This document shows positions 1 through 37,255 of a DNA stretch of 64,000 bases, piece by piece. A model generated the notes under the pieces. The model did no database searches. It worked only from the letters and a program-made list of their open reading frames with translations, and was not told where the DNA came from. Each line of letters begins with the position of its first letter. Position 1 is the first letter of the stretch. The position numbers were made by a program, and so were the translations under genes. Source of the DNA: Sphaerochaeta sp. Phil3 (GTDB lineage: Bacteria; Spirochaetota; Spirochaetia; Sphaerochaetales; Sphaerochaetaceae); NCBI GenBank assembly GCA_001940825.1, contig MSGT01000071.1, positions 1-64,000 on the forward strand, written 5' to 3'.

Positions 1-1402
1 TTTCTTTTTCATCATCTATAAGAGTATAGTCAAATAGATCAGCATAAGCCATATCATCTAGACTCACAGTATGAGAAGTTAATACTTTCTTTTTACGAAT
101 ATCTGATGTCTCCCTGAAACCATCCTTTGCATAAATAACTCCATCTACATGAAGCGTATATTTTGGCGATGCAGTGCCTATGCCGACCTGGCCTCCACCC
201 ATACAGCAAACTAAGTTATTAGATGAAGCATGCTGCAAACGCAGCTGATCGTTATAATTATTTATCTCACTACCTCTTCCGCTATCATTTCCGTTGTTAT
301 CTGTTTCAATGCAGATATTATTAAACTTAGCTCCTCCTGTTACATTGTTTGTACCGTCAAAAGGCTTACTGAATATTGTGCGAGGGGTTACAAGCCTAGT
401 TGCCGAAGCTACATTATCACTAATACAAGCTAATGTCTTTTGCCAATAATTATTCTAATTTGTACCAAAAATAATCGGGTTACCGCTTAACGGAAAGTAT
501 ACACCTGTTGAGAATCCTGGATATCCTTCTTCATTTATTCCACTATTACAATACACTTGTATCTGCATATTACCTAATGAATTAGGATGTCCGACTCCAA
601 TAAATAAAGAGTCATCAGCCCCAGTATTAACATTATTATAACACCAGCCTAATACCTTTCTTAAATAGACGTTAGTATCAGTAGAACCAAATTCATTGTA
701 ATCAGGGAAGCCAATTTGACGCATCACTCTATCTCCTACATTACCAAGATGTTTACCGTCCAACAAATCCGCATCCAGCCCTGAACCTGAACCATCGTTG
801 CCGGCATGCCAAACTTTATAATTATTAGACCCTAAAAGAATATTTACGTCTCCGCTTACCCAGTCTTGATTAATATCGGTTTTAGCTATTCTTAGGTTAC
901 CGTCTCCGTCTGTGAAGTTAATTCCAATTCTATTGGAACCTGCATTATTAAAACTGATAGCAGACTTGGTTCTTGGAATAGACGTAAGGTCAATGCCAGA
1001 ATCTGCGTTAAATAACAATTTTCCCGTCATCGTATCCCCGGCCTTGTTGACGTAACGGTTATCCAGTTCGCCTGTGTAATTGCTTGAATTTAGTATGAGA
1101 TTACCATCGGTATACCAATTATTTCCCAAATACCCTATGTATGATAAATCCTAAGAATTCTAGTCTTGCACTTTTATCATGCAGTAATTATCTGCATCTA
1201 GCGATTGTAATATAAGCTTAACATCTAATGCAGTTGATATAGTTGTAGTTGATTTAAAAGTCTTAATTCCGTATATCTCCTAAGCAGTGTCAATTGTTAC
1301 CGCATCAGTAATTCCATAGCCGCTTAGAGTATTTGGTTTATCCCATATCTTATCCCACGATGTGGTAATTATTTTGTCCCCTATAAATATACCTGTATCC
1401 AT
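1..1402 (-). CDS. Tail fibre with C-terminal S74-type chaperone, partial (TAG-recoded)
   Basis: The gene starts at ATG 1402-1400 and runs off the left edge. Four in-frame TAGs (1280, 1160, 1151, 455) are read as Gln. The N-terminal part has tail-fibre repeats of the type SGYGITDA, and the middle has ADLLDGKH, common in fibre shafts. The last visible part (KYTLHVDGVIYA, then FRETSDIRKKK) matches the start of the intramolecular chaperone domain (peptidase S74 family) that trimerises and cleaves itself off fibres and spikes. It should act in host-surface binding. The frame stays open upstream through a 9-base poly-G tract, but no ATG is found there, so 1402 is the preferred start. Confidence 0.85.
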
Positions 1403-1430
1403 TTTATTGATCAGTTGTGTGTGCTATTTA

Positions 1431-1439
1431 CCCCCCCCC
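1431..1439 (-). repeat. Poly-G tract (9 G on coding strand) before tail fibre gene
   Basis: Nine C on the plus strand lie between the stop of the 142-aa fibre-associated gene and the ATG of the tail fibre. It is one of four such tracts in 2.6 kb, all in or beside fibre genes. Such runs slip during replication, so this one may tune or switch expression of the fibre. Confidence 0.8.
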
Positions 1440-1486
1440 TCTAAGCAATAGCTTTATTAATTTAAATGTATTTCAAAGATTATTTT

Positions 1487-1915
1487 TTATGCAGCAGAAG
1501 TTATATAAGCAACTGTGGTTTCTTCAAAACTGCTATCTATTTCAAATAAATAAGATTGTTCTGTTGTAGAAGTGCCAGAATTTGTAGATCCAGATGATGA
1601 AAAGAATAACTATGAGAAGTTATAGTTACTATGTTCAGAAGTATTAGGATTTATATCACATAGAAACTATGAACCTTTAGATCTATCTACCCATAATGCA
1701 AAAGTAGAATTAGGAAGTAATGTTATCTCATGTTCATATGTACTATCTTCTGTTAGCATTATAATAATAGTATCATTAGTAAGATTTATTACTATACCGT
1801 TGGATCCTGGGAAACCTTCTCCTACTTTCTTTACTACATTACCCCCCCCCATTATGAGGTTAGTACCTAAGTAAGCTTTATTGACACTATTAGTGCCTTG
1901 TTTTATTCCATTCAT
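1487..1915 (-). CDS. Small fibre-associated protein with internal poly-G tract
   Basis: 142 aa with two in-frame TAGs (1667, 1610); it ends in TAA at 1487. Its N-terminus (GTNSVNKAYLGTNLIMGGG) shares the pattern GT-x4-K-x-YLG-x-N-x-(I/L) with the proteins at 4033-4458 and 3632-4020, so the three are paralogues interleaved with fibre genes. Nine G at 1842-1850 encode part of MGGGN and keep the frame open. One extra G would give a TAA stop right after the tract. Function is unknown; the position suggests a fibre attachment or decoration protein. Confidence 0.75.
1842..1850 (-). repeat. Poly-G tract inside coding sequence
   Basis: Nine consecutive G on the coding strand inside the 142-aa gene. 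With nine the frame is open (ATG GGG GGG GGT AAT). Gain of one G puts TAA directly after the tract, so the tract could act as an on/off switch. Confidence 0.85.
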
Positions 1916-1916
1916 A

Positions 1917-2528
1917 TTATCCTACAATTAAATAAAGAGTGTTAGATGATTTAGATGAAGCATCATATTGTGCCTAAGTGCAAGATACTATATGAAAGCC
2001 ATCTACTGTATCAGCATTATAACTAGTAGATCCTGCAGGTCCTTGTGGCCCCTGATCTCCTTTGTCACCTTGTGGTCCTTGTGATCCAGTTGCGCCAGTG
2101 TCTCCCTTATCCCCCTTATCTCCTTTCAGATTAGCAGAAGATGTACCTGAAGCAGATGTAACAGTAAGAGTAGTACCATTCCATGAATGTGTACAAGATA
2201 CTCCATCTGTACCTCTATCACCCTTATCACCTTTACTTCCAGTATCACCTTTTTCTCCTTTAACTCCTTGAATTCCTTGTGCACCTTGTACTCCTTTAAG
2301 ATTCTTAAAGTTAAAAGTAAATGTTCTAGCTTGTGCAGTCCCCCCCATAGTTACAGTAACTGCTGGAGTACCTACATTAGAATCTATAGTAGCTGTTACA
2401 TCTGTAATAGAAGCACTTGCCCCATCAGTACCACGTTCTCCCTAAGGGCCTTGAGGACCTTCTTGACTAGAAATCAAAGAACTACCTACGAATAAACCTG
2501 CATCTACATTCTATGCTAACGTTGTCAT
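1917..2528 (-). CDS. Collagen-like tail protein (TAG-recoded)
   Basis: 203 aa from ATG 2528 to TAA 1917, with three in-frame TAGs (1974, 2442, 2511). It holds long Gly-X-Y runs such as [16 protein letters not shown] and [16 protein letters not shown], typical of trimeric phage fibre shafts. The TAG at 2442 falls in GPQGP-TAG-GERG, a position filled by Gln elsewhere in the repeat, which supports TAG as Gln. A seven-G run follows an internal ATG at 2348. The stop overlaps the region just before the next gene start (TAATATG). Confidence 0.85.
2340..2346 (-). repeat. Poly-G tract (7 G) in collagen-like gene
   Basis: Seven G after ATG codon 2348-2346 inside the collagen-like gene. The frame is open with seven. 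It is shorter than the other three tracts but in the same gene set, so it may also slip. Confidence 0.7.
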
Positions 2529-2540
2529 AATTAATTAAAT

Positions 2541-4476: not shown

Positions 4477-6231
4477 TTATTCAGTTACTGCATACATTGT
4501 ATTAGCATCCTTAGGATCTAGTGCTGCATAATCTGTAGCAGATATTTTAGTTGCGGTAGTAAGATTATTAGATTGCATTATGTCATTAATTTTAACGTGA
4601 TAAGAATCACTAGTTTGTATAATGCTTATTCTTTTCGTAATTTGAGTATCCGCAATATAATATGTTATTATAAAATGAAGTTCATAAATAGTACTATTCT
4701 ATGACTTATACGCATTAACTGAACTCATTTCAATTACATTAGCATTTACTCCTGTAACGTTAAACCAATATCTAGTGCGATTACTAATTATATCACTGAC
4801 AACATTCCTAAAACTCTATTCATTACCAAATATACTAATTATCCAATTCGATGCGGTAGTATCTGAAAGATGTGCATTAGTCGTTAAGAGTGAAGCATCT
4901 GATATTTCTATTGTAGATCCAGAAGATAAATCATCTACGTATTTTTTAGTAGCAGGATTATACTTATTAGTTGGAGTATATTCATCAGTATTATTTTTTA
5001 ATAATACCTAATCTTCATTAGCAATTCTGGTACTATCAGCACTAATAAGTAAATCGCTCTATATACCTATGAAATACTTAAATATATCAATATTATAGGA
5101 AATAATAATATTACTATTATCATACCAAGCCATTGCCGGAATGTAATAGCCAGTACTTTGCAATTCTCCTAAACCGTAATCGATCATTATTATCTTATGA
5201 TCATTAATTGCGGCTAATAGATTATCAAAGTCAGATTGTTTAACTTTTCCATCACTAATAGTAGGAATGAAAGTATAAACATCCTATTTAATTACACTCT
5301 TAGTAACAGTTATATCCCTAGTAGAGCCGTTAATACGTATATATACCCATAGAGGATAAGCAGAATCTTGATCTATTACAAAGTTAAGACTAATCTCATT
5401 ATCTATAGCATAAGCGGCTACAGGTATTCTTGACCCAGTAGTTGTTAGATCGGCGATACCTACAGGAACAGTTATAATCTTTCCATCAGTAATAGCTTGC
5501 TATAGTTTGGTGTAATCATCTTGTGTAACTTTGTTAGATTGAATAGTTGGGCTAAAATAGTATACTTCAGGAGTTGTCTATAAACCTTTTATAACTTTTG
5601 TAAAACTAGCTTGTCCGTTTTCATATCTTATTAGAATAGAGTTAAGATCACTACCTACCTAACTATACAGGTTTAATGTTCTATTAAGTGAGCTTGAATT
5701 AGTAGAACACATAGCAAATATGAAAACTATAGACTAAGAGGTACCAGCATAGTTAGCGGCTAAAATTAACGGCTTATTATTAGAAGCAATTTCATTAGTT
5801 AATTCTATAAACTAGTCTAATCCGCCAAATGCATCTAATATCTCATCTGAAGTGCTAGTATTCTCAAGAAACATGATACCCTCAGGTATCATTATATAAT
5901 CATTTATTTCAGACCAAGTTGCATTCTATCTACCATACAACTTACCATCTTCAGGAGCTTCTGCGATACCGCCTCCAGTACCTCCACCACCAATCTCTAC
6001 CCAATTACTTGTTTTAGTATAATCGGTAGAGGTAAGCTGATACAGCTTACCTGGTCTATCCTCACATGTAACATTCTTTCCTTTATATACCCATACACTA
6101 CCTTCTTCATCAGTCCAAGTCTCAGCTTTGGTTAGATCCGCATAGGTAGGAACTATACTACCTGCTTCAAGTGGTGCATCTTTCTTTACTTCTAAGTTAC
6201 CACTAAAATTAAATGTTCCTTTATTTCTCAT
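4477..6231 (-). CDS. Tail fibre or tail structural protein (11 in-frame TAG)
   Basis: 584 aa, ATG 6231 to TAA 4477, with no TAA or TGA inside and 11 TAGs, so it is unreadable in the standard code. The N-terminus has a carbohydrate-binding-like segment (AETWTDEEGSVWVYKGKNV, then KLYQLTSTDYTKTSNWVEIG) followed by a Gly-rich hinge GGGGTGGGI. The rest is beta-rich with repeated units ending in SPTIQSNKVTQDDYTKL and IPTISDGKVKQSDFDNL. This layout fits a trimeric tail fibre. Confidence is high for the gene and moderate for the role. Confidence 0.8.
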
Positions 6232-6233: not shown

Positions 6234-9200
6234 TTATGCAAATGTAATTTTAAATGATGAAGATCCATTAATACCATCATTACGTGTATATGTTTTATAT
6301 TCTACTTGACTTCCTTGTACTTCTATATTCTCTGTAGTCACTGTGAAACGATCTATACTATAATCTTCGTACTTATCATTTAATGTATTTAATAGAGTTA
6401 TAGAACTTACTGTGAATTTAGAAGGTAATTTGAAAGCATGTTTATTATCTGCTGTTTCAGCTACATAAGTAATATCCAATAACTTACTAGTAGATAATGG
6501 CAATTTAGCAAATGTAGTAATATTATCCTTATTAGTAAAGTAAGGATATACGCCTGTAACAGTTAAAGTCTTAGTATTACCAGGAACAATACTGTTAAGT
6601 GTAGCATTCTCTTTAGCTACAGTCTTATGTTCATCACTAGTCTTACCAAGATTAGAACAAGCGTAATATATAGGCATAGATGCAAATGTAGCAGTTGCTT
6701 TTGGGCCTGTAATATCTACCTTCACTGTATTACTTCCTTCAATTGCATTAAATACTTTACTTTCTAAAGTAACAGCAGAATGATCTGTATTAGGAGTAGC
6801 ACTTTCTGATTCTCCATTTACTAATCTAGTCATAGTATAATTTTCTTCTAACAGATTTACATTAGAACCATTTATAGTAATAGTATTATTATCTGAGTCT
6901 TTACTGTTATCATTGGCAGCACTATAACCATAAGTAAATCCAGAATACTTTCTAGGAGTACTAGATGCTACAGCTGCAGATAATGTAGTATCACTAATAG
7001 TAATAGGGGTACCTACTTCTACTAATCCAGTAGAACTCAATGTGAATGAAGGAACTGAAATAGTAGCTTTAGATGTACCTTCTGTAAATGTAAGACTACC
7101 AGGCCACAATTCCTTAGTAAACAATGTCATAAATAAATCCTACAGATTAGTATCAGAACTAATACTAGTAATACCAGCACTGTTAAGTAAACTAGCTAAA
7201 GGGCCACCAGCTACAGGTATCTCATTAGTAGTCTTTACAGCTTCGGTATTTACTTCGGTTTCTACCGTTATATAAGTTCCATTATCTGCTAAGAATTTAG
7301 TACCATCGCCATTAGTAAGTATCTTATTAAGTTTAATACTTTCTTGACTAGTAATGATACCAGCTGATGTTGAACTAGCTTTCGGTAATGTTACATTCTT
7401 CTCACTAGTAGTAATACCGTTAGCTAAATCTACAGTCATTATAGCGTCATCAGCAGTACTATTAGCAAAGTCAATATCAGTAATAGCAGAGTTAGTCTTC
7501 TTGTCTAATTCAGTCTGTACTGCGGTAGAAACTGGTTTATCAGCATCACTAGTATTATCTACATTACCTAATCCTACTTGAGCCTTAGTTACAGAATGTG
7601 GATTCTGCTTATTAGTGATATGAGTAGTAAGATTACTCTAAACAGCACTGATATCAGCAGTAATACCTTCCTGAGTCTTTAGATCGTTTAGTTTAGTCTT
7701 ATCTGCTGCTGACATTACACCAGCTTTAGTAGTAGTAGCTGATTGAATGTCTAAGCTTACAATTCTACGATTAAACCTACTGTCTAGGTCATCTCTTTCT
7801 ATACCCATAGAATTAATTTGTACTGCTGTATCACTGGGAACAATAGTTGTCAAGCCAACTCTAGTTCCTATAGATGTAACAATATCAGTAGTAACTTTAC
7901 CTTTATCACCAGCATAAGCTGTACTAGATGTTTCACCTAATGCTAATGATTGAGATATCTCTATGTATCTAGTACCTGACCATCTATAAGTAAGATTAGT
8001 ATCTAATGTAACATATATCTTACCAGCTTCCCCTACTTCAGGTAGCTCATCAAATATAGCTACTTCTATTACGTCATCTACATATGCAGGCAATTGTGAT
8101 GAAGGAATAAGACCTTTGCCATCTAATGATGCGAATCCATTAGGTTGACCTTTAGTAGCTATAAATCCATTTAACTAGTTGCTTACTTCAGTGATTTTAG
8201 TGTTGTTGTCCTGATCACCTTTCTGTCTTTCAGTAGTTTCATTAGAAATAGCTGTAGATAATTCTGCCTCTTTACCAGTAGCTCTAGTAGTCTCTGCAGA
8301 TATAGCCTATTGTAATTCAGTATCTGCTTGCTTCCTATCTGTTATCTCTGTAGAAATACGAGTATTAATAGCAGAATCAGCCGATTGATAATTAGCAGTT
8401 ATGTTATTCTCTGCATTCTTAGCGCGAGTGACCTCTGCATTTAAATCAGTACGTAATGCTTCATCAGCTTGAGTACGAGCAGTTTCCTCTGCAGTTATAG
8501 CTGCTTTTCTATCAGCTATCTCAGTATTAATCTTATCAGTAACTGCATCTATAGCATCACCTCTATCCGCAATCTCCTTATCTATTCTGCCACCTAATGC
8601 AGTATCTGCCGCCTCTCTGTCACTAGATTCTGTTGTAATGCGATTACCTAATGCAGTATCAGCCTGTGAACGAGTAGATGCTTCTGCATCGATATTACTT
8701 TGTAATTGTCTATCTGCAGCTTCTCTAGCTTCTCTTTCAGCCTATATATCTTCAGCGACTCCAGTATCTAGCCTTACTTTATCTGCAGCAGTCATTATAC
8801 CTGCGGTAGTAGTAGTAGCGGCTGGGATGTCTCTATATAGATTACCAGAATCCGCATAAACGCCATCTATTACTCTAGAAATAGGCTGTACTACTGTTAC
8901 TTTATCTGCAGCGGTAGTAATAGTTGTCTTTTCAGTTAGCCACATCTTTGGCATTGAATCAAACAACTTCTTATCTGCAGCAGCCATAAGACCTGCTTCA
9001 GTACTAGTAGATGAGTCGAGTACTACAGAACTATCTGTATTATTCACATACAGTTCATCACTGCCTCTTTTCTTATTGTTTACATTTATCTTATTAGTAG
9101 TACTTGTTTTCTCAACTGTACTACTTACATTAGACAGTACCGTATCAGGCAAGCTGTCTATAATATCTTTACTATGTTTACCCTTACCACCATCGTAAGC

Positions 9201-26011: not shown

Positions 26012-28516
26012 TTACTTCTCTCCTGTTACTTTATTCTTCAGAGCTGTACGTGCTTTAAGCTGTTCTCTCTTGTATGCTTCTGCATCTTTTTGTTTCTGTA
26101 ATTCCATTTCCTGCTTCATCTTCTTTTCTTCAAGTTGAATTTTCTTATTCTCAATTTCACGTTTCATTTCAATTTCACGCTTCTTATTATTCAACTCAAA
26201 CTGTTTAGATGCTGCATCAGAATTTACTTTCTGTTGTTCAATTGCCTATTTACCTATTTCTATAGGATCAGGTATACCATTCATATCTTGATCCATGTTT
26301 TCAGAACCTCTATACGCATTGATCTGGGCAACAGTAATCTTAGTAGAAGCATCTGTATCAATCTTATATTTTTCAAGATCTAATTCAGCTTCTTTAAGCA
26401 TAAGTTCTTCTTCCTTAACCTCATTCTGTATTTGAACTAATTGCTGTTCTCTTTCTGCTTGTGCTTGTTCCATTTGTTGTTGTTGTTCCATTCTTTTCTG
26501 TTCTATTTCTTCAAGTTTATTCTTGATCATAGTAACATTATCCATGGTGATGATTTCAGCAATATCAAGCAAACTAGCGCCATTCTGCATAGCAGGTTGC
26601 ATAAGATTTCTAAGAGCCTCAATCTATTGTTGATTCTTAGTAGTATCTTCTACAAATATATCATAATCTTCATAGAAGAAATCATCAGATAAAGTTAAGA
26701 ATGTTCTGGTTGCATCATCTAATACATATTGTATACAAGTCTTATTATCTTTCCAAGCATATTTAGCTGTATCTAATAACATGGTGATACACTCTTTCTT
26801 TACCTAATTGTGTGTCCAGAACCAAGGTTCAGTAATATGAGCAGATTGTACTACAGAACGTTCTACATTACCTACTAACTCATTAGATGCAATAGAACCT
26901 TCACGTTGTTTACTTACTCCAGATATCTCAGATAACATACTTTCGATCTTGTCCATTAAATTAATGTATTGATCAATAGTATTAGCCATAGTAAGATCTA
27001 AAGCAGATATCTGATTGAATTGGGATGGTTTACCACCCTCACGACCTGGTATATCCCATCCTTCTTCATATGGATTAACAAAGTTAACTCCAAGTGCTGA
27101 TAAGTAATGCATCCATTTAGCTACATCTATATTCATAGACTTAGGTATCTAAGTAATATCCATAGTAACTACTTTACCTTTGTCTCTAGCCATAGCTAAT
27201 TCAAGACGATACCAAAGTACGATATACATGTATTGTAATGGCTTCATCATACTAACAAGACTACGCGGTCTACTGTTAGTATTATTGTATATTACTCCGG
27301 TATATGGTAGTCTTTGTGAATTAGGATTATCTGCGGATACATGTTGATATTCAAGTGGTTCTATACCGACGTATAGATCCTCACCTATTCTATATCCTTC
27401 CCAAACTTCAATAATCCATCTCCATTCTACATTGATTTCGTTGCCTGTTACCTTATAAGTTTCATCAACTTGATAGTCTTCTGGCATACCTGTTTCTGGA
27501 TTGATTATTGTTACAAAGCCAATTTTCTTAAGTGATTTCCAACAACAATGCCATACGTGCACATTATTAGATTCTTCGAATGGATTAGCAGCAAACCCAT
27601 TAATACTATGAGTTTTGATGTGAGGATAGTCTAAAGATGTCTTTCTTACTTCGGGGGTTATACCACCTTTAGAACTATCATCCATCATGTCCAGCAGGTC
27701 ATTCAATTGCTTTTCTGACATCTTATCATATAGTCTGTCATATACTTCAGTAACAGACATAATCATCTCATAACAACACCATTGTGCTTCATGTATGAAT
27801 TCAAGATCAGATGTATCAGTATCATAGTCAAAGTAAATGGGATTTATTCTCTCTAAATGAGGTTCTCCATTTACTATTCCTACATAATATATTTCTTCAC
27901 CACCAACTAGCGCATCTTTCCAACCCTTATAGAATTCATGAGTAATATTCAACTTGTTCTTTAAATAGTTTAGACTATGATATGCTGTTATCTCGGCTAT
28001 ATCTTTATAGTCTTTACTCATGTACTTTTGTATCTATTCTGGTGGCATTACTTCACCTGATTGTAATGCTTCTTGGTACCTGGCCTATTCTTCAGGGCCT
28101 AGTCTACTCATGATAGTAGCTTGTATGTAGTCTATAAGCATTTGTTTAGCTTTATCCTACATTTCACTAGTAGCTATATCACTTGTACGTACTACTCTAA
28201 AATTGAATGGTCTTTTAGTTTCTTCACCTAATAATAGGTCTATTTTAGGCTTAATTATATTATAATCCTAAGCCATTGCAGGGAAACCATCTTGCTGTTT
28301 AAAGGGGTTAGTAACATACTTAAGATCCTTCTCATTATATATACTATTGTAAAGGTCATAGTATGTCTACATTTCCTCTTTACGAGTTCTAGTATTACCA
28401 TTTCTAGAACCACCTTGACTATGTCCTATAATATAGTCAACACAAGACTCTTTCCAGTCCTATGTTTTCTTAGACATAGGTAATCTCTACAAAGGAAATT
28501 GATTAATATTCTTCAT
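26012..28516 (-). CDS. Portal protein
   Basis: 834 aa, ATG 28516 to TAA 26012, 11 in-frame TAGs and no other stop. It lies directly after terminase. The core (PIYFDYDTDTSDLEFIHEAQ, VTEVYDRLYDKMSEKQL) has the layout of crAss-like portals, and the C-terminal 200 residues form a Q/E/K-rich coiled coil (QQQQMEQAQAEREQQLVQIQ), as expected for the long portal barrel. A nearby GPEEQARYQEALQSGEVMPP stretch is the usual mobile arm. Confidence 0.85.
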
Positions 28517-28518: not shown

Positions 28519-30600
28519 TTAAAACATATATGCTTCGATATTATCAGTAGATTCATCGTCATGAAACCACTGTTGAGTAAAGATAGGGCCTTCAAATAAT
28601 ACCCTATTTCTATTCTCCTTTTTTATTTCTTTTACTTTGACATTATAGAGCTGTTCTCTATAAATCATTACTTGTGTCAACGCCATTACTCTATCCACGT
28701 TCACCACATCATTTGCAGCTATGAGCTCTTCCAATAGCGGTTCTGACATTATGTTGTATAGATTCTTCTTACCATCTGCATTAATCTCATTAAGCCAATC
28801 TTTGATAAGACCCCAGCCCCATTGTTTGATTTGTTTATTCATATGGCAACCCTTCTTTCTGTTTACTTTAGAGTTGCCAACAATATCGTTTATAATATCA
28901 GGCTAATCAGCTAGTAAGTAGTCACAATGCTTATTAGTAAAGTAAACAAAGATACCTTTGTTTTGATTCTCATACATTGCTCTAGCATTGTAATACAGCA
29001 ATAATTTTCTTACATTCTCATAGAACTCTTCTGCTGATTTAGGTCTACCTGTATATTCAGCAACTATAATATCAGAATATTGTTCTATAGATTGTATACG
29101 CTTATATATAAAACAAGAACCAAGAGATGTGGTACTTGATTCATCATAATCATATGAGTCAATACCAGCTATATAAAGACCTGCACTAGCATCTTTATTA
29201 GGGTGTTCCCATATTACTATAGAACCAGTAGGATCATCCCCTACTAAAGCCCCTGTAACTTCATCTCTTTTGGTTCTTAATGGATAATGAGTTATATCTC
29301 CAGTCTTCTTAATTACCCATTTAATAGTTCCATCTGGTTGTTGAATTAAGTCTCCTACTTGTTTATGGTTCTATAATTTCTTATTAGTCCTAAGTAATGA
29401 TAACTATTCCTGTAATTCCTTTTTGGGAAATATGTTACCATTAAATTCTAGCATGGCTTCAGCTGGAGTAATAGGACGTTCTGCCACATAACGGTCTACA
29501 GCTGCATTACTAGTAGCATTAGTTATTACTACTTGTCTTTCAGCTAATATATGTTCTAATGATTTCTTTTTAAACGTATTACCATCATCATCCATGTATA
29601 TACGCTTACCGTCTTTATCGCGTATATCTAGGTTAGTATACTGAGGTACAAAGAAACCACATTTATTAGTAGTTGCTGTTTCATCCCATATATTATCAAA
29701 ACCTAAACAGTTATAACCGTCTGGGTTATAAAACATGTCTTTCATGGTCTCGAATGCAGAGCCTTCATCACCACCAGTACCCCATACAATCATTGTACCA
29801 AAGGCTATACCATCTACTTCTACAGAAGGTCTTGCAATTTGCCATGCTGCTCCTAATTCTGAGAAAGAACCACCCTCTTCAAACATAATAAGGTTGGCTT
29901 TCTTACCACGAACTACGTCAGGATTATCTTTCAAAGTAACGCCAATAATCTCTGACTTGTAACCCATTTCTATTACATTACCATAATCGTCTTTAGTATA
30001 GAAACCAGCTCGTCTACGCATCTGGGTATTAACACTACGCTTCTTACCCCAAGCTGTATTCTTATCTATGAAGTCCATGTAATCCCATGCTTTAGTAAGA
30101 ATACCATCATCTGTTAAGTATTGCTTATTAGATGCGTATATGAATGTTTTACTATTGGGTATCAAATAGAAATTACGGCATGCCATAGAACCACCTTTGT
30201 AAGAGAAACCCTTACGTCTTGATTTAAGTAGACATAGATGTTTGCCCACTGTTTCTGCTTCTTGAACAGCATTAAAATAGTAATAATCATAGTCCCAGAA
30301 GTCTGGAAAACTAACTTCATTTATACGCTTTACTACAGTATTGCCATCTTTATCAGTAGTAATATGATTGACAATACGAGATATAGGACAGTAGTTTAAA
30401 TAAAAATAGTTATAGCCACTGATGAAATCACCATCATCAGCAGTATAACCATTAATACATCTATCTTGTTCTTCGTCCCAGAACTTATAAAATTCCGAGG
30501 TACCTTCAGGATACTAACAATAATGCCCTGTAGCTAGAAACTACAAGGCAGGTTGTCGAAATTTATCTGAATTGATTATTTTTTTGTTAAAGTCAACCAT
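28519..30600 (-). CDS. Large terminase subunit
   Basis: 693 aa, ATG 30600 to TAA 28519, five TAGs (30541, 30514, 29404, 29371, 28903). It has a phage-type Walker A (KSRRKGFSYKGG at about 126), Walker B NLIMFEEGG (about 236-244), and an RNase H-like nuclease domain with AGIDSYDYDES (Asp481) and a late acidic region. It packages DNA into the prohead together with the portal encoded next. The C-terminal part from MNKQIKQWGWGLIKDW completes the nuclease domain. Confidence 0.93.
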
Positions 30601-31098: not shown

Positions 31099-31173
31099 TG
31101 GTAGCCCCACTAGGATTCGAACCCAGACTAAGAGGGTTAGAGCCTCCTGTGCTAGCCATTACACCATAGGGCA
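31099..31173 (-). tRNA. Suppressor tRNA, anticodon CTA (reads TAG)
   Basis: Folds as a full cloverleaf with encoded CCA. The D stem is GTGT/GCAC, the anticodon stem GGAGG/CCTCT has loop CTCTAAC, so the anticodon is CTA, and the T arm is CTGGG, TTCGAAT, CCTAG. Pair 1-72 is T.T, so the helix end is weak as in tRNA-Gln, and the discriminator is A. It is on the late strand just upstream of terminase. It can decode the in-frame TAGs of all genes to its left. Gln as the inserted residue is inferred from TAG positions in collagen-like and M15 motifs. Confidence 0.92.
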
Positions 31174-31178: not shown

Positions 31179-31200
31179 ACGTGGGTATAAGCCCCCACGT
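31179..31200 (-). promoter_or_regulatory. Hairpin next to suppressor tRNA
   Basis: ACGTGGG and CCCACGT form a perfect 7-bp stem between the 45-aa gene and the tRNA 5' end. No T run follows, so an RNA-processing or stabilising hairpin is more likely than a terminator. Confidence 0.5.
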
Positions 31201-31408: not shown

Positions 31409-31939
31409 TTATCTCGCCAACTCATAAGGATTAATCTTGGCATCACCTTTGACTTTACCTATGGCTACTTCTTCAGCTTTAACCATATTCTCTAAAGTAT
31501 CTATACTCTTGAGTACGTTACCTACTGATGTCATACCAGCTAATAGGTCTTTAATTTTCTTTTCATCAAGAGTATCGTCAAGGGATTCTTTATAATACTT
31601 ACTGATACTATCTAGCTTTAGCCTCATGTTATCAAGCATCTCCAGCGTACGAGTATGACAGAATGCTTTATAGTCATTTTCACAGCTAATTTCTTCAGCA
31701 GTAAGTTGGTAGTTTTCATCACCAAATATTTCCTTTTTGAGTTTGGGCTCTCTAGTTTCAGCTTCCATACTTTGAACATATGGGCTATTCCATTTGTTCA
31801 TTAGTACTATATAACTGATTACTTTAGTAGCATATTCTTTATCTGCTTTATCAGCATCCCATACTTTTTTAAAGCATGGGATACCTAAAGCATCTGAATG
31901 AATAATTACTCTACCTCCTTGAATATCAAATAGTTTCAT
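31409..31939 (-). CDS. Conserved-looking head-operon protein
   Basis: 176 aa, ATG 31939 to TAA 31409, no TAG. N-terminus KLFDIQGGRVIIHSDALGIP, then helical with KVISYIVLMNKWNSPYVQSM and a C-terminal coiled coil (GNVLKSIDTLENMVKAEEVA). This type of gene lies upstream of terminase in crAss-like genomes, but I cannot name its role. Confidence 0.7.
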   Translation of the reverse strand: MKLFDIQGGRVIIHSDALGIPCFKKVWDADKADKEYATKVISYIVLMNKWNSPYVQSMEAETREPKLKKEIFGDENYQLTAEEISCENDYKAFCHTRTLEMLDNMRLKLDSISKYYKESLDDTLDEKKIKDLLAGMTSVGNVLKSIDTLENMVKAEEVAIGKVKGDAKINPYELAR

Positions 31940-32234
31940 TAGATTCGATCTTCTTAGTCAGACTTCTGAACCATCTGCTGATGTCATCCTTAGCGACTAT
32001 GTCAGTACATATTACCGCTTTAGTGTCATAATCAACACCGTTCCAATGTACAAAGTACAGTATTAAGTCACCTGCATTATAGTCTATTACTTCGGTTTCA
32101 GTAATTATTTGTCCATCCTATTCAGCAAAGAATGCGCATCTAACATCAAAGTCTGAGGGTGTAGTTTTAATGGAATTAGTCTCTGTATTATACAGAGTCT
32201 TATTACCATACTAATCAATTAATAATTTATCCAT
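31926..32234 (-). CDS. Hypothetical late protein, paralogue of next gene
   Basis: 102 aa, ATG 32234 to TGA 31926, TAGs at 32209 and 32118. The start DKLLIDQYGNKTLYNTETNS lines up with NKYILTEQRALIKLNTETLK in the neighbour at 32237, so these are tandem paralogues. Mostly beta strands. The stop overlaps the next gene start. Confidence 0.7.
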
Positions 32235-32236
32235 AA

Positions 32237-32581
32237 TTAGCAACTTTGAGATACACATTCACAGTCACAGCAACAATCTTTAGCTTTCTCTCTGCCCTTT
32301 TGCTCTTCGTAGTACTTCTTTCTACGTTCGTAGTGATTAGTAAGATCTTTGTTATCAATTACGATGATGTCACTGTGTTCCTCATCCCCAATTCGATACA
32401 TCAACATCACTACATTACCTGCTTTTACTTCGTATTCTTTATCAAAGTAAGTAATAACTCCGTCTTCTTCGATAAGCCATATATAATCTACATTATATGA
32501 AGCACCAATACTATTGACCTTTAGTGTTTCTGTATTAAGCTTTATAAGTGCACGTTGTTCAGTTAAAATATATTTATTCAT
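32237..32581 (-). CDS. Hypothetical late protein with Cys-rich tail
   Basis: 114 aa, ATG 32581 to TAA 32237, no TAG. Beta-rich domain like the neighbour (FDKEYEVKAGNVVMLMYRIG), then a basic helix and a C-terminal cluster CCCDCECVSQSC that could bind metal. The gene pair likely arose by duplication. Confidence 0.7.
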   Translation of the reverse strand: MNKYILTEQRALIKLNTETLKVNSIGASYNVDYIWLIEEDGVITYFDKEYEVKAGNVVMLMYRIGDEEHSDIIVIDNKDLTNHYERRKKYYEEQKGREKAKDCCCDCECVSQSC

Positions 32582-32625
32582 AATGTCTAATTTTTTAATC
32601 TATTCTGTAACCTAAATAATATTCT

Positions 32626-33027
32626 TTACTCAATTTCTGTAGTATGCTCTACGCTAGAGCTAGAGGTATCTTCGGATGTACATACTCCGGATTCATCTGA
32701 TACTTCTGTATTATCTGCTAGAACTCCATTATCTCCTTCTCCAGACTCTGAGTTGTTATGTTGCTTCGTATATTTTTCATATAATCTCTCACATATAAGA
32801 TCAATCTGTGCAGCTCTATCCAAATTAGTTTCATTCTTACCATTTTCTATAATAGTAGTAGTTACTTCATCTAGCATATCACCACTAAACTGATCATACA
32901 TAAGATCTCCATTCATAATCAACTCTTCTACTAAATCAAAGAGTTTATTCATTTTCTTCGTAAGTAGATTTTTGTCTGTATGAGCTTTCTCTACTTTCCA
33001 CATTGCAATGCTTTCTTCTTTAGTCAT
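32626..33027 (-). CDS. Hypothetical late protein
   Basis: 133 aa, ATG 33027 to TAA 32626. The N-terminal 90 residues are helical (KMNKLFDLVEELIMNGDLMY); the rest is a disordered acidic Ser/Thr/Glu tail. Function unknown. ATG overlaps the TGA of the upstream gene. Confidence 0.65.
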   Translation of the reverse strand: MTKEESIAMWKVEKAHTDKNLLTKKMNKLFDLVEELIMNGDLMYDQFSGDMLDEVTTTIIENGKNETNLDRAAQIDLICERLYEKYTKQHNNSESGEGDNGVLADNTEVSDESGVCTSEDTSSSSVEHTTEIE

Positions 33028-33451
33028 TTTCTTCTTTAAATTTAATTAAACTACTACTTATAGAGCCCGCAGCCCATCCAAGTAAATATGCATAGTTTTC
33101 ATTTCTATGAAAACACTCTGCTGACAAACCTAATGAATCATACATATAATCTGTAACATGTGTAGCTTCGTGAGCAATAGTATTTATTGCATCCTCAAGA
33201 TTATCCGGATTGAAAATAACTACTAATACACCTACCTCTCCTGTAGCTTTATAGTGTACTGGTATTGTAACTGCCGCAGTATACTCTTCATAGAACTCTT
33301 CTACTAAGCTCTTATAGGTATCTTCATTAACTATGTTAAAGTCTTCTATATTACAAAATACGAACTTCTTATCTAAACCTTCAGCATAGTTAGCTACCCA
33401 TAGCTTTCTAGGATAAATTACAGGATCGTATGTATTAAGTATTTTCTTCAT
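33020..33451 (-). CDS. HExxH zinc metallopeptidase-like protein
   Basis: 143 aa, ATG 33451 to TGA 33020. INTIAHEATHVTDYM has His94-Glu95-x-x-His98, and the helix NENYAYLLGWAAGSISSSL supplies a Glu (118) at a distance used for the third zinc ligand in gluzincins. The core is complete for a small protease. It could process head proteins or attack peptidoglycan; substrate unknown. Confidence 0.75.
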   Translation of the reverse strand: MKKILNTYDPVIYPRKLWVANYAEGLDKKFVFCNIEDFNIVNEDTYKSLVEEFYEEYTAAVTIPVHYKATGEVGVLVVIFNPDNLEDAINTIAHEATHVTDYMYDSLGLSAECFHRNENYAYLLGWAAGSISSSLIKFKEEND

Positions 33452-33626
33452 ATCTTTTCTTTAATTTAATTTTACCCAAGTAAGTAAATCTGATAGGTTT
33501 ATTATCCTAATTAGTTATAGCTTCATTAGTAAACCTAAAAGGACTATTACATATTACTTCGATGATCTAATAAGGTAAGTTGTACTTATTACTTAGTTTA
33601 GTATATATACTGGGTTGATCTTTCAT
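33435..33626 (-). CDS. Small late protein visible only with TAG as Gln
   Basis: 63 aa, ATG 33626 to TAA 33435, TAGs at 33568 and 33508. In the standard code only short pieces remain. The sequence KYNLPYQIIEVICNSPFRFT then DNKPIRFTYLGKIKLKKRYE looks like a small beta-containing protein. It overlaps both neighbours by about 17-29 bases. Function unknown. Confidence 0.65.
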
Positions 33627-33990
33627 TGAACTTTACTCTTTTATAGTATCTACATTCATTTAGAGTAATAGGTCCACTGATAGTATTTGGTCTAATTACG
33701 TTGATAACATCTGCTATATCTAACCAATTACTAGAGTAATGTAAGTCATTAGCTATTATAGCTAGTTTATTAGCTTCTAATTTACTATACTTACGTATAG
33801 GTTCATATATTGCTGTTTCGTTATCAAAGTTTCCATTAATACTTAGTAACTCCGTTTTCTGAGTAATAAGAGTAAACCTATTGTAAGGCAAATGCTTATT
33901 CCATAGACCATACCAAGCTTTCTTAAGGAAATTATAATCTTTCCAAACTATAATGGAACCTGGTTCAAGCATTGTTGATTGTACTTTCAT
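33598..33990 (-). CDS. Hypothetical late protein, possible papain-like or lipid-binding fold
   Basis: 130 aa, ATG 33990 to TAA 33598. Starts KVQSTMLEPGSIIVWKDYNF, and has KAWYGLWNKHLPYNRFTLIT, LEANKLAIIANDLHYSSNWL and ECRYYKRVKFNE. The pattern of a 'G-(S/D)-I-I-x-W' strand near the N-terminus resembles NlpC/P60-like hydrolases but I see no clear Cys-His pair, so function stays open. Confidence 0.6.
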   Translation of the reverse strand: MKVQSTMLEPGSIIVWKDYNFLKKAWYGLWNKHLPYNRFTLITQKTELLSINGNFDNETAIYEPIRKYSKLEANKLAIIANDLHYSSNWLDIADVINVIRPNTISGPITLNECRYYKRVKFNERSTQYIY

Positions 33991-34357
33991 CTTTATTTAA
34001 TCTTAACACTATTGTTATTTGTACTCTATCACCGATTACTTCTGGTATTAAAGCTTTATTTACCATTACTTCATCTTCTACTCTGCCTTTGACAAGTATA
34101 CCTTGATTCTTAAACTTAGTTATATATCTACTTAAGTTATCAGGAGTAATACCTAATGTTTTTCTGATATACTTTCTATTTTCAGTACTTATTACATTCT
34201 TACTGATATTAGGGAGTTTTGGTGTATTTATATCTAACTATATAAATGTAGATAGTAATTGTAACTCCCTGTCAGTAAGATCTAATATACCGTTTAGGCT
34301 TTTCAAGAATTCGTTGTATAAATCAGTTTTAGAGACACCTTTAACTAATTTATTCAT
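33965..34357 (-). CDS. Winged-helix-like DNA-binding protein
   Basis: 130 aa, ATG 34357 to TGA 33965, one TAG (34239). NKLVKGVSKTDLYNEFLKSL is followed by LTDRELQLLSTFIQLDINTP, a helix-turn-helix region TLGITPDNLSRYITKFKNQG and a beta wing GILVKGRVEDEVMVNKAL. It could regulate late transcription. The call rests on pattern only. Confidence 0.65.
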
Positions 34358-34733
34358 TCTCTAATTTACCTTTAATACTATTAGCCAACTTAATCAAATT
34401 GTACAGTACTGTTTCGGATTCTACTTTGACACAAGGTTGTACTTCACCTTTTTCAAATTTATTCTGTACTTCTAGTAAATCACTCTTGTACTGTTCAATT
34501 AAATTATCAATGAAATCAACAGTATCTTTAACAATTGACTTATCAGTAGCAATTGTAGTAAAATAACCGTCGTTATACAGTTCCTCTGCAAGTTTATCAT
34601 TGATCATAATGGAACGCTCACAACCATCCTTAGACTCATCTAAAGTATATGCTTCTTCCATTCCGTTCCAAAACAATAGGTCACCCTTCTTAAGTAACCC
34701 ACAATCTTTAATTACTTTATAATCTGACATCAT
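34350..34733 (-). CDS. Hypothetical late protein
   Basis: 127 aa, ATG 34733 to TAA 34350. N-terminal beta domain (KDCGLLKKGDLLFWNGMEEA, like an SH3-type barrel), then a helical C-terminus (DFIDNLIEQYKSDLLEVQNK). No family recognised. Confidence 0.65.
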   Translation of the reverse strand: MMSDYKVIKDCGLLKKGDLLFWNGMEEAYTLDESKDGCERSIMINDKLAEELYNDGYFTTIATDKSIVKDTVDFIDNLIEQYKSDLLEVQNKFEKGEVQPCVKVESETVLYNLIKLANSIKGKLENE

Positions 34734-34807
34734 TTTTCTAACTTTTTACAGGCCCACATTACTAATACTCCGATCAGTATTGCTAATAGCCAACATTTAT
34801 CTTCCAT
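34730..34807 (-). CDS. Small single-span membrane protein
   Basis: 25 aa: short acidic N-end, hydrophobic CWLLAILIGVLVMWAC, basic KKLEK end; ATG 34807 to TGA 34730, overlapping the next ATG. Could be holin-like or an anchor, too short to assign. Confidence 0.5.
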   Translation of the reverse strand: MEDKCWLLAILIGVLVMWACKKLEK

Positions 34808-35004
34808 GACACTAAAACGCCTTTGTTAACAGACTGTTAATACTTTTTAACATTTGTTAACATTTCATTAACAGATAATAGAAAACCCCAGCGTGAGACT
34901 GGGGTTAACTATCTATCAATTTAATATTCATAATAAAAACATGTTTATGAAAAATCTAAATTCAAGTAGATTGGGCGTTTATGCTTGAAATTAAATCTTT
35001 TTTC
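34808..35004. promoter_or_regulatory. Intergenic control region with TTAACA repeats
   Basis: The 197-base gap has several TTAACA or TTTAACA units (34,822-34,873) and a terminator hairpin at 34,884-34,906. The same TTAACA-rich sequence occurs in the divergent region at 37,380-37,445. Likely a secondary promoter for leftward late genes behind a terminator; no -33/-7 boxes are clear. Confidence 0.45.
34884..34906 (-). terminator. Intrinsic terminator
   Basis: AACCCCAG and CTGGGGTT pair (8 bp) around TCTCACG on the minus strand and are followed by TTTTCT. It sits after the GroES-like gene and would end the promoter-proximal late transcript. Confidence 0.8.
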
Positions 35005-35373
35005 TTATTCGCAAACAGCAATTACATCAAATGGTTTGACTAACTGACTATCTTTGAATAAATCAAAGTCCTTAGAGAACTTTTTATTGTAAACTACTTT
35101 GTCCCCTACTCTAAATTCAGGTTCTGCTACACAAGTGGGAAGGGCTAATACAATACCAGTACCATATTCAGATTCTACTTCTTTAGTCTCTGTCTTTGTC
35201 TCGTACTTATTAAAGCCTTCTTCATCTACTTCCCCCGTAGGAACTTGTTCTGTAAATTCCTTAGTAACCATTACAGGTTCTAATGGTTTTACTAGAACAT
35301 CTTTAAGGAACTTGTAGTTCAGTCTGTTTAAGACTGTTTCTAATATCTTATCTTCGTCACTCATATTCTTCAA
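35005..35373 (-). CDS. GroES-like co-chaperonin candidate
   Basis: 122 aa, ATG 35373 to TAA 35005 (a second ATG four codons on). The order DVLVKPLEPVMV, long mobile insert, GTGIVLALPTC, FRVGDKVVYNKKF and LVKPFDVIAV resembles the beta barrel of GroES and phage co-chaperonins, which pair with host GroEL to fold capsid protein. The insert (about 35-65) would be the mobile loop. Similarity is by eye only. Confidence 0.55.
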   Translation of the reverse strand: MKNMSDEDKILETVLNRLNYKFLKDVLVKPLEPVMVTKEFTEQVPTGEVDEEGFNKYETKTETKEVESEYGTGIVLALPTCVAEPEFRVGDKVVYNKKFSKDFDLFKDSQLVKPFDVIAVCE

Positions 35374-35421
35374 ACTTGGTTTATTACTATAACGTATAGT
35401 ATGCTAAATAGTTCTAAAAAA

Positions 35422-35622
35422 TTACTCTTTTATTTTAAGTATATTACCACCATTAGAGGTACAGTATGTAACAGCTCTTGTTGGACATCTCAATTGGTTT
35501 TGAAAGTAACAGCCATCACATCTACCACCCCTGGAAGGCTCTATTATAAACTATTTACTTTGTATCTCTACTGGAGTACCCTTCCTTATTATCTCAGCTA
35601 ATTCTGGATCATATAACGTCAT
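35422..35622 (-). CDS. Small zinc-ribbon-like protein
   Basis: 66 aa, ATG 35622 to TAA 35422, one TAG (35551). It has RCDGCYFQNQLRCPTRAVTYC (residues about 35-55), shared with the protein at 36862 (CEGCSLYNSSCPTRVTGYC). Four Cys in pattern C-x2-C-x6/7-C-x7-C suggest metal binding. The gene is one of the first late genes with an in-frame TAG. Function unknown. Confidence 0.7.
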
Positions 35623-35699
35623 AACTTTAAATTCTCCTTAACTTTATATATAGTATACATACTAAGTATGCCAACTATAACACCAAACCAAAAACTCAT
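35619..35699 (-). CDS. Small membrane protein
   Basis: 26 aa with one hydrophobic segment (SFWFGVIVGILSMYTIY) and a basic end; ATG 35699 to TGA 35619, overlapping the next gene start. Unknown role. Confidence 0.5.
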   Translation of the reverse strand: MSFWFGVIVGILSMYTIYKVKENLKL

Positions 35700-36028
35700 T
35701 CTTTTATCTCCTTTCCTTTTCCGTGTTTATCTAAGTAAAGCATAGCTATTGCATTCCAAGCTACTTGGGCTAAATGTTGACAACCTGTATCTTCATCAAC
35801 CTTATTACCTTTCTCATACTCAAGTAAGTGTCTTAACATAGCAGCTTTATATCTCTGATAACCATTGTCCAATAATTGCCAAGTATTCTCACCATACTTA
35901 TTAGCACCAGATGTATATACTTTAACTATATCTTCAATTTCTTCTAAAGGCAGTAAATCCCATCTTAGCTTACCGTCTTGGAAATCATTCTTTTTTCCTT
36001 CTTTCATAGTTTTACTTCCCATTGCCAT
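35696..36028 (-). CDS. dATP/dGTP pyrophosphohydrolase-like protein (DUF5664 type)
   Basis: 110 aa, ATG 36028 to TGA 35696. FQDGKLRWDLLPLEEIEDIV, VYTSGANKYGENTWQ, AAMLRHLLEYEKG and DEDTGCQHLAQVAWNAIAML match the N-terminal domain family of phage dATP/dGTP diphosphohydrolases, a MazG-like all-helical fold with acidic metal ligands. It would change the nucleotide pool during replication or protect modified DNA synthesis. Confidence 0.75.
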   Translation of the reverse strand: MAMGSKTMKEGKKNDFQDGKLRWDLLPLEEIEDIVKVYTSGANKYGENTWQLLDNGYQRYKAAMLRHLLEYEKGNKVDEDTGCQHLAQVAWNAIAMLYLDKHGKGKEIKE

Positions 36029-36180
36029 TCTTCTGGAATTATCTTTATAGTATCTGTTTTAGTAGTCAGTAACCTTTCTATCTGTTTATTCATTTCAGTA
36101 AGAAATTCTTCCTCTACTAGGGCAAATTCTTTATCATTAAACCAGATGGGTATTAAGTGTTTATTACTTATATTTTCCAT
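36004..36180 (-). CDS. Hypothetical late-strand protein
   Basis: 58 aa from ATG 36180 (ENISNKHLIPIWFNDKEFAL) to TGA 36004. An upstream non-ATG start exists, but ATG 36180 has better context. Unknown role; overlaps both neighbours. Confidence 0.6.
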   Translation of the reverse strand: MENISNKHLIPIWFNDKEFALVEEEFLTEMNKQIERLLTTKTDTIKIIPEEWQWEVKL

Positions 36181-36394
36181 AGATATATTCAAAGTAATCA
36201 ACTATAAATTGAGCCATCTCTTCATCTTCCCCGTCTTCTATATAAGAATTTATCACCTTTTTTCTTATATCGTTGGTATAAAGAAGAATTAAATTGTCGA
36301 GGTCTTCAATACTACCAAATTTTAGGAACTTGCTGTAAATGTTCTTTAAACCTTCATTTGAAGGGTAATATTCTACTATCTTTTTATTCTCCAT
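36164..36394 (-). CDS. Hypothetical late-strand protein
   Basis: 76 aa (ENKKIVEYYPSNEGLKNIYS ... VDYFEYIYGKYK), mostly helical and acidic. ATG 36394 to TAA 36164. Unknown. Confidence 0.6.
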   Translation of the reverse strand: MENKKIVEYYPSNEGLKNIYSKFLKFGSIEDLDNLILLYTNDIRKKVINSYIEDGEDEEMAQFIVDYFEYIYGKYK

Positions 36395-36650
36395 CTACAA
36401 AGTATATAAGGTTACCATTCATCAGATTACTATCAATACCTACAAATTCTATATCAGTATTATAAGTACTTCTATACTTAAAAATATAAGTGTCTGGATT
36501 GTTGTCTGTGTAAGTACCAGTTATAGATTTAAACAATTCAGGTATAATGTCTTTGTCTACATATACTCTCATATAAGGTTTTAATTCACCATCTTCGTAT
36601 AGACTGTCTATAGTCTCATATACTTTATCTATTATCTCTTTTACTTCCAT
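36384..36650 (-). CDS. Hypothetical late-strand protein
   Basis: 88 aa from ATG 36650 (EVKEIIDKVYETIDSLYEDG) to TAA 36384. A longer TTG start at 36680 would overlap the upstream gene more, so ATG is preferred. Beta-rich centre. Unknown role. Confidence 0.6.
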   Translation of the reverse strand: MEVKEIIDKVYETIDSLYEDGELKPYMRVYVDKDIIPELFKSITGTYTDNNPDTYIFKYRSTYNTDIEFVGIDSNLMNGNLIYFVDGE

Positions 36651-36865
36651 GATTTCTTTATATCTAAGTATATCTCCCAAAGTTGGTCTTCAGTTAAATC
36701 TTTAAAACTACATTTATCATTCCATCTCCAAGAGTCTACAAATCCACCTACATAATGACCTAGATTTAATCCTTTTTCATTATACTTATCCATTATAGTA
36801 TAATAAGGACCACTGCATCCTATGATAAGATTTACTAAGTCATCTCTATCTAACTCTACCGTCAT
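36641..36865 (-). CDS. Hypothetical late-strand protein
   Basis: 74 aa (TVELDRDDLVNLIIGCSGPY ... LWEIYLDIKKSWK), ATG 36865 to TAA 36641. The start overlaps the TGA before it. The LVNLIIGC-PYY pattern occurs in small phage proteins of unknown role. Confidence 0.6.
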   Translation of the reverse strand: MTVELDRDDLVNLIIGCSGPYYTIMDKYNEKGLNLGHYVGGFVDSWRWNDKCSFKDLTEDQLWEIYLDIKKSWK

Positions 36866-37053
36866 AATATAATCTTCTTAAGTATATAACCTTGAGTACA
36901 GTAACCGGTAACTCTAGTAGGGCAACTACTATTATACAAACTACAACCTTCACACATACCTTTCTTCAACTCTGGTACTAACTGATATGGTTTATTACCA
37001 TGATATACTATCTTACCAGAGTAAGCCTTATCTATCTTATTTACTTTATTCAT
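36862..37053 (-). CDS. Small zinc-ribbon-like protein (paralogue of 35422 gene)
   Basis: 63 aa, ATG 37053 to TGA 36862. Cys motif MCEGCSLYNSSCPTRVTGYC with the same spacing as the protein at 35422, and a matching GxILK end. No TAG. Probably metal binding; function unknown. Confidence 0.65.
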   Translation of the reverse strand: MNKVNKIDKAYSGKIVYHGNKPYQLVPELKKGMCEGCSLYNSSCPTRVTGYCTQGYILKKIIL

Positions 37054-37255
37054 TGTCTAAAATTTCAACTTTTTGTAAGTATATATTCCCCTCATATTCT
37101 GGTAGACCTTGTTCTAATTTGTAATACTCACTATCAATCAGAACTATCCATGCCCATCCATCATCTACTGATTCTATATATTTTACTTCCTTATCCTCAA
37201 ATATAACATTAGATTCTTTAAAGTCTAATAACTTATCTATAAGTCTATATTTCAT
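37046..37255 (-). CDS. First late-strand gene, hypothetical
   Basis: 69 aa, ATG 37255 to TAA 37046 (KYRLIDKLLDFKESNVIFED, then GWAWIVLIDSEYYKLEQ). It is the promoter-proximal gene of the leftward block. Small beta-rich protein, unknown role. Confidence 0.6.
   Translation of the reverse strand: MKYRLIDKLLDFKESNVIFEDKEVKYIESVDDGWAWIVLIDSEYYKLEQGLPEYEGNIYLQKVEILDNE

Follow-up and report, generated by a model that had tools for sequence, protein, structure and literature searches.

An amber-suppressor tRNA heading the recoded late block of a crAss-like phage, exchanged as a cassette among relatives and split by anticodon introns in some of them

Introduction

Late recoding of TAG to glutamine, served by suppressor transfer RNAs (tRNAs), has been published for crAss-like phages (Yutin 2021, PMC7886860), and proteomics of two such phages has proven glutamine at TAG (Peters 2022, PMC9523058). 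As described there, code-15 crAss-like phages combine in-frame TAG in late genes, a phage-encoded CTA tRNA and early genes in the standard code. The same three traits are found in the stretch analyzed here (“the window”), the first 64,000 bases of the 100,100-bp contig MSGT01000071.1, which was binned in a 2.36-Mb bacterial metagenome-assembled genome (MAG). Our subject is the CTA suppressor tRNA gene of this window and its counterparts in other phages. Suppressor exchange, linkage to homing endonucleases and introns, which we describe below, do not appear in the available portions of PMC7886860 and PMC9523058, and PMC7886860 leaves recoded genomes without a detectable suppressor unexplained.

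The Lak megaphages (Devoto 2019, PMC6784885; PMC8346664) also use code 15, encode a CTA tRNA and have introns in some tRNAs. Those introns were reported in other tRNAs (tyrosine GTA, in baboon Lak) and, as far as the text says, not in the suppressor (PMC6784885); in Lak-B1, however, we find that the CTA tRNA too is split, and that the inserted intron is related to that of the crAss-like phage cr115_1. Thirteen of 51 Lak genomes were reported to be without a TAG suppressor (PMC8346664). A phage release factor 2 was reported in Lak (PMC6784885), whereas a search of our MAG gave RF-1 domain matches solely on its other contigs and none on the phage contig; the gene is not defining for crAss-like recoding. 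Matches to glutaminyl-tRNA synthetase were likewise confined to the other contigs of the MAG, with none on the phage contig.

The T4 endonuclease SegB has a role in the inheritance of the tRNA region of that phage. Like the endonucleases described below, it is a phage homing endonuclease encoded beside phage tRNA genes (PMC2988022, PMC13096335), but the linked tRNA in our case is a single code-switching suppressor required by the late genes. Group I introns in tRNA anticodon loops are known from bacteria (reviewed in PMC3984707); those reported here lie within the CUA anticodon of a phage amber suppressor, with two classes at one point. Finally, theta ribozymes are self-acting RNAs proposed to help mature the suppressor tRNAs of recoded gut phages (Kienbeck 2024, PMC10879173). 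Theta is a hepatitis delta virus-like ribozyme 3' of the tRNA, whereas the elements found here are group I introns inside the anticodon. The window tRNA has an encoded CCA, and an open reading frame (ORF) begins 12 nt downstream of it; no Rfam ribozyme was found 3' of it, in a search in which the published theta motif itself was not run. Neither introns in phage suppressor tRNAs nor homing-driven suppressor exchange turned up in full-text literature searches, although subscription papers are mostly outside that coverage. The core recoding is therefore already known, while suppressor exchange and introns at CU^A look new, a novelty that is not certain.

Results

In-frame TAG codons are concentrated in late genes

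The contig is a crAss-like phage, as its terminase large subunit (TerL), portal and major head proteins match crAss-like families (E 1e-137 to 1e-171). The closest public record is cr4_1 (Buorbuivirus hominis, Suoliviridae), followed by cr114_1, also of the Suoliviridae, and cr125_1. The late (minus) strand runs from 37.3 kb to position 1 and continues from 100.1 kb to 66.2 kb, and an early block on the plus strand occupies 37.6-66.0 kb. Among crAss-like contigs (L153-L161 and G000:C71), bins included Bacilli, Mollicutes, Erysipelotrichaceae and other MAGs; binning thus tells little about the host.

The two blocks differ sharply in their use of TAG. The 49 late genes of at least 100 aa (21,589 codons) contain 245 in-frame TAG codons against 662 CAA/CAG, with TAG present in 36 of them, whereas 29 early genes (6,249 codons) contain 5 against 199. 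Four of these five early TAGs lie near the ends of three genes and are candidate stops; the fifth results from a start called too early. The late and early features of the window that bear on this comparison are as follows.

28519..30600, minus strand: terminase large subunit, 693 aa, 5 in-frame TAG (PHROG 6681, E 1.8e-156)
26012..28516, minus strand: portal protein, 834 aa, 11 in-frame TAG (PHROG 6547, E 6e-171)
22107..25157, minus strand: 1,016-aa protein without assigned function, 25 in-frame TAG
18888..20360, minus strand: major head protein, 490 aa, 1 in-frame TAG (PHROG 11589, E 1.4e-137)
10151..12958, minus strand: 935-aa tail/host-specificity protein, 13 in-frame TAG, two of them adjacent (TAG-TAG, 12,863-12,868)
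6234..9845, minus strand: 1,203-aa tail-associated protein, 8 in-frame TAG
4477..6231, minus strand: 584-aa tail-region protein, 11 in-frame TAG
37572..64000 (on the contig, to 66,033), plus strand: early/replication block, standard code, genes without internal TAG
40097..40099, plus strand: TAG as stop; the cr4_1 homolog of gene 39,791-40,099 ends exactly there
46716..46718, plus strand: TAG, probably the stop of gene 46,263, a sigma-W factor by cr4_1 annotation; the cr115_1 homolog has about the same length

Outside the window, a single late ORF of 4,491 codons (71,594-85,069) carries 37 TAGs. A first-pass annotation of this DNA had counted 11 TAGs in the portal gene and 13 in the gene of the 935-aa protein and had noted the TAG pair at 12,863-12,868, all of which we reproduced in frame. 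It had also given about 25 TAGs to a “970-aa” protein; the count is correct, and the true length is 1,016 aa. Its statement that late genes never end in TAG holds partly by construction, as TAG was read as sense. The late frames mostly abut, however, which supports the sense reading independently of these circular end counts.

Early genes end in TAA (30), TGA (10) or TAG (5). Two of the four TAG ends proposed in the first pass, at 40,097 and 46,716, are supported by the homologs listed above. The one at 43,288 closes a weak ORF that overlaps a RAGATH-9 RNA, and the one at 42,962 is absent among ORFs of at least 45 aa and would close a very short one. A further early TAG end lies at 66,031. Every early TAG stop is followed by an in-frame TAA or TGA 5 to 34 codons downstream. 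The two supported genes (39,791 and 46,263) suggest that early TAG acts as a stop.

TAG aligns with glutamine

To identify the residue encoded by TAG, we used an alignment with 16 non-recoded relatives. Glutamine stands at 144 of 270 TAG cells (53%), as often as at CAA/CAG cells (588 of 1,212, 49%), while lysine, glutamate, tyrosine and tryptophan codons give a pattern unlike that of TAG. At several TAG sites (portal 10, 120, 456 and 571; TerL 566) all aligned relatives have glutamine. These data support the earlier assignment of TAG to glutamine. The window tRNA has U1 and a weak 1-72 pair, as do most other suppressor alleles, and these features fit a glutamine tRNA. We infer that it is charged with glutamine by the host. 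An origin from the glutamine tRNAs of the MAG itself was considered and not retained, identity being just 62-64%.

The suppressor tRNA gene marks the boundary of recoding

A CTA tRNA had been placed on the late strand at 31,099-31,173, and both ARAGORN and Rfam confirmed it there (54.8 bits against RF00005, where the Rfam cut-off is 29 bits). It is the sole CTA tRNA of the contig. The gene and its surroundings comprise the following.

31099..31173, minus strand: suppressor tRNA (ARAGORN), intact allele, anticodon CUA (31,140-31,138), encoded CCA, U1.U72 mismatch, A73
31138..31139, minus strand: junction CU^A, the vacant counterpart of the group I intron site of relatives (GGAGGCTCT^AACCCTC, as in L088)
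31179..31200, minus strand: hairpin ACGTGGG..CCCACGT immediately upstream of the tRNA, the final stretch in common with cr4_1 before the tRNAs diverge
31409..37137, minus strand: TAG-poor late-strand block 5' of the tRNA; its genes of at least 100 aa contain 3 TAG against 26 CAA/CAG

Recoding had been described as confined to the late strand. The late-strand TAGs are real; late-strand genes 5' of the tRNA, however, are also TAG-poor, and the boundary of recoding is the tRNA gene, not the strand. Across five related genomes, TAG makes up 5-12% of the glutamine codons of the late strand 5' of the tRNA and 26-33% 3' of it (Fisher p = 0.053 for the window, 0.045 for cr4_1, 2.5e-4 for cr114_1, 8e-5 for cr125_1 and 6e-5 for cr115_1), in tests that are not independent, the genomes being related, and that are confounded by gene class. 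This pattern fits an order of early genes, middle genes (the 5' block), tRNA and late genes.

The location of the tRNA inside the late operon that it serves had been pointed out in the first pass. This location is not peculiar to the phage, as recoded relatives of the same clade also carry a CTA tRNA just upstream of the TerL gene. In non-recoded relatives we found neither in-frame TAG nor a CTA tRNA at this position, and two distant recoded genomes have their CTA tRNA elsewhere on the late strand.

We also considered, and rejected, the idea that the suppressor is preceded by a special leader hairpin. Hairpins are frequent there, yet not stabler than at 29 other phage tRNAs (mean z -1.50 for suppressors versus -1.35, p 0.39). 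Between the tRNA and TerL, the stretch 30,730-30,990 (minus strand) is conserved and non-coding, with a tRNA-like end (GTGAGG..CTAGTTCGATTCTAGCCCTCAC) that ARAGORN misses; a tRNA-Met occupies this place in many relatives. In L157 (1811-2035), a CTA tRNA lies immediately beside a glutamine (CTG) tRNA, ahead of TerL.

Suppressor tRNAs are exchanged as cassettes

Identity between the window and cr4_1 is 99.3% ahead of the tRNA and 99.9% behind it, but 67% in the tRNA itself, the divergence starting within the first tRNA bases. In cr4_1 the tRNA is followed by a GIY-YIG endonuclease gene with a NUMOD1 domain (Pfam), and the same type of tRNA with a GIY-YIG gene recurs in cr114_1, L040 and L158. 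Overall, an endonuclease gene recognized by Pfam (GIY-YIG or HNH) adjoins the tRNA in cr4_1, cr114_1, L040, L074 and L158, and one judged by sequence only does so in cr125_1, L038 and L145. In the window itself no endonuclease gene was found beside the tRNA.

This incongruence extends beyond one pair. For the three phage pairs closest by TerL (99.7, 98.8 and 94.0% aa identity) the suppressor tRNAs are 67, 63 and 63% identical, whereas phages with TerL identities of 68-76% have suppressor tRNAs that match the window tRNA at 93-97%. TerL and tRNA identity are uncorrelated over 136 pairs (Spearman -0.22). All exchanged alleles retain the CUA anticodon. The suppressor tRNA is thus swapped as a cassette while its CUA reading is kept; cutting and replacement by homing would account for the exchange.

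In six cases, HNH genes inside introns (see below) have no TAG against 8-13 CAA/CAG each, despite residing in recoded phages, and the free GIY-YIG genes of cr4_1, cr114_1, L158 and L074 have no TAG either. On the other hand, the tRNA-adjacent HNH genes of cr125_1 and L155 contain five TAGs each. Intron endonuclease genes may be free of TAG because a protein encoded inside an unspliced suppressor cannot depend on that suppressor; alternatively, TAG-free endonuclease genes may be recent arrivals from standard-code genomes.

Introns split the CUA anticodon in other phages

In about ten other phages (crAss-like, Lak and unclassified; eleven records) the CTA tRNA is interrupted at CU^A by group I introns of two classes, one of which encodes an HNH endonuclease. 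In L039/L042/L043, L088/L089/L090 and cr115_1 (L045), tRNA halves surround 228-996 nt, and no intact CTA tRNA was found at the TerL-side locus of these genomes. When the insert was removed in silico, ARAGORN read CTA in all eight distinct cases. In cr115_1, whose RefSeq record has no annotation over this stretch, we found no other CTA tRNA. The cr115_1 insert is 74% identical to one within the CTA tRNA of the Prevotella megaphage Lak-B1, and the 29 other tRNAs called in Lak-B1 include no intact CTA tRNA. The split genomes retain many late TAGs.

Bohxovirus PV686213 and contig MT835539 have genes related to the HNH gene, and these too are located within CTA tRNAs. We scanned IMG/VR with two patterns built on the intron cores, without tRNA terms except a few 3' bases, and obtained 5 and 9 stretches, every one of which interrupts a CTA tRNA at this point. 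The tRNA seems to be the same in MT835539 and L201, yet their intron classes differ at the identical point.

The small introns (219-245 nt) contain no ORF and all end in G. RNAalifold predicts a P1 helix between exon CUCU and intron GGAG that places U.G at the splice site; compensatory changes occur in 23 of 54 pairs. The HNH class measures 977-1,003 nt. Its helices P2, P3, P7 and P8 are paired in 175 of 175 cells, and 13 of 25 pairs are changed on both sides, a value reached in 0 of 500 shuffles; sliding destroys the pairing. The pseudoknot topology of P3 and P7 is that of a group I core, which identifies the inserts as group I introns, presumably self-splicing in both classes. In the small class, guide pairing with CUCU, which spans loop positions 32-35 and includes the first two anticodon bases, may explain the preference for amber suppressors.

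Not every missing CTA call is due to a split gene. This explanation failed for L038, L145 and L160, whose CTA tRNAs are intact but unusually shaped, with an atypical T arm, and are missed by both ARAGORN and Rfam; L061 and L154 have the same kind of tRNA, but ARAGORN calls it. A small HNH-like gene follows the CTA tRNA in L038 and L145. In addition, a different tRNA (called as Leu) holds inserts in L193 and L197 (Lak-C1 and Lak-B2) that are akin to a portion of the cr115_1 intron; these are group I-like, about 640 nt long and apparently two tandem intron-like units.

Other RNA elements

A cluster of structured RNAs, all over the Rfam cut-offs, opens the early block (window 38,464-44,860, plus strand).

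38,464-38,680, plus strand: RAGATH-7 RNA (Rfam)
38,898-39,056; 39,161-39,288; 41,566-41,700, plus strand: three Hatchet ribozymes (Rfam)
43,141-43,302, plus strand: RAGATH-9 RNA (Rfam)
44,609-44,860, plus strand: group I intron (Rfam)

Three self-cleaving ribozymes of one class within 3 kb are unusual. A tRNA-like gene at 61,962-62,086 (plus strand; Rfam 38.6 bits) has about 41 extra bases in its anticodon loop, too few for a group I intron; ARAGORN calls it Thr AGT with an intron. Several of the phages L036, L037, L076, L162, L176 and L191 have transfer-messenger RNA genes, some of them near tRNAs.

Discussion

The explanation that we consider best, and probably correct as a whole, combines two codes, a tRNA gene that heads the recoded block, and exchange of the suppressor by homing and introns. 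Translation of early genes would stop at TAG. The host would charge the tRNA at 31,099-31,173 with glutamine, and this tRNA would then allow TAG to be read as glutamine in the late-strand genes 3' of it, which serve packaging, structure and transcription. As head of the recoded block, the tRNA gene would also be an exposed site for selfish DNA. GIY-YIG or HNH homing endonucleases, encoded beside the tRNA or, in relatives, within group I introns that split CU^A, could move and replace suppressor tRNAs between phages. The CUA reading would be kept because the phage cannot make virions without the suppressor. The introns and endonucleases were found in relatives, the window itself being the intact allele.

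Several observations weigh against this explanation. For the window itself, the 5'/3' difference in TAG reaches only p = 0.053, and gene class may underlie it; the early and late classes and the order of the switch were deduced from gene content and position. Where the window tRNA has A73 and U72, the glutamine tRNAs of the MAG have G73 and A72, although this MAG is not necessarily the host. Among the introns, the 3' end of the HNH class is G in five of seven cases and A in the other two, and no internal guide sequence was found for this class; some introns may therefore be impaired, or their splice site misjudged. Rfam recognizes one intron alone (L045, RF00028, E 0.0044) and gave no match for the others, and for this reason their structure was tested by covariation instead.

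One possibility for the differing suppressor tRNAs is escape from host defences that cut tRNAs, rather than homing. Conflicts of this kind are known to involve phage tRNA regions both as targets and as tools (tRNA-Tyr cut by Septu, and SegB; PMC13096335), and the near-random tRNA identity among near-identical phages fits diversifying selection. However, whole cassettes with GIY-YIG or HNH genes are exchanged, with a sharp boundary at the 5' end of the tRNA, and the introns strike one exact point. We regard defence escape in place of homing as unlikely; the two are mutually compatible.

Another possibility is that the suppressor is made during the whole infection, so that TAG means glutamine throughout, in competition with host RF1, and early genes avoid TAG owing to harm from readthrough or to recent acquisition. 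It could be argued that just 5 of 45 early genes stop at TAG, and that an in-frame TAA or TGA follows 5 to 34 codons later. This is nevertheless improbable, as early genes are nearly without internal TAG against 245 in the late block, and the late-strand position of the tRNA, directly ahead of the recoded block, is shared by relatives; in the two distant recoded genomes the tRNA is again on the late strand. The position of the tRNA and the gene content of the blocks suggest instead a timed code switch, an idea already published in general form (PMC7886860, PMC9523058).

It could also be speculated that assembly chimeras or decayed pseudogenes account for the split genes and the differences among tRNAs, given that all sequences are metagenomic and that splicing of the split genes is predicted from sequence; this is very unlikely, as the GIY-YIG cassette is repeated in four independent contigs (cr4_1, cr114_1, L040 and L158), the introns occur in eleven records with compensatory changes, and the split genomes keep their late TAGs, with no intact CTA tRNA in cr115_1 or among the Lak-B1 tRNAs examined. 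That TAG encodes a residue other than glutamine is scarcely credible: the window tRNA does resemble the glutamine tRNAs of the MAG only weakly (62-64% identity), but the homolog alignment puts glutamine at TAG, most alleles have U1 with a weak 1-72 pair as in glutamine tRNAs, and proteomics of two other crAss-like phages agrees (PMC9523058).

In the split relatives, a switch of code would be possible only after the intron is spliced. We suggest, tentatively and as a possibility that we think rather less likely to be true than false, that some phages gate the switch in this manner: the only UAG-reading tRNA carries an anticodon intron, and the late programme awaits its removal. The rate of splicing, or its dependence on the state of the cell (for example, on GTP), would then act as a timer, and the suppressor of co-infecting phages would be an object of competition among homing endonucleases.

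Recoded phages in which no suppressor tRNA is detected have been puzzling (PMC7886860; for Lak, PMC8346664). An intron at CU^A conceals the suppressor gene from standard tRNA finders; such introns can thus explain the “missing” suppressors of several recoded genomes, including the RefSeq genome cr115_1, and give a testable answer there. The exchange of cassettes indicates that a code can persist although the key to its switch is replaced, and it ties selfish DNA to genetic-code change.

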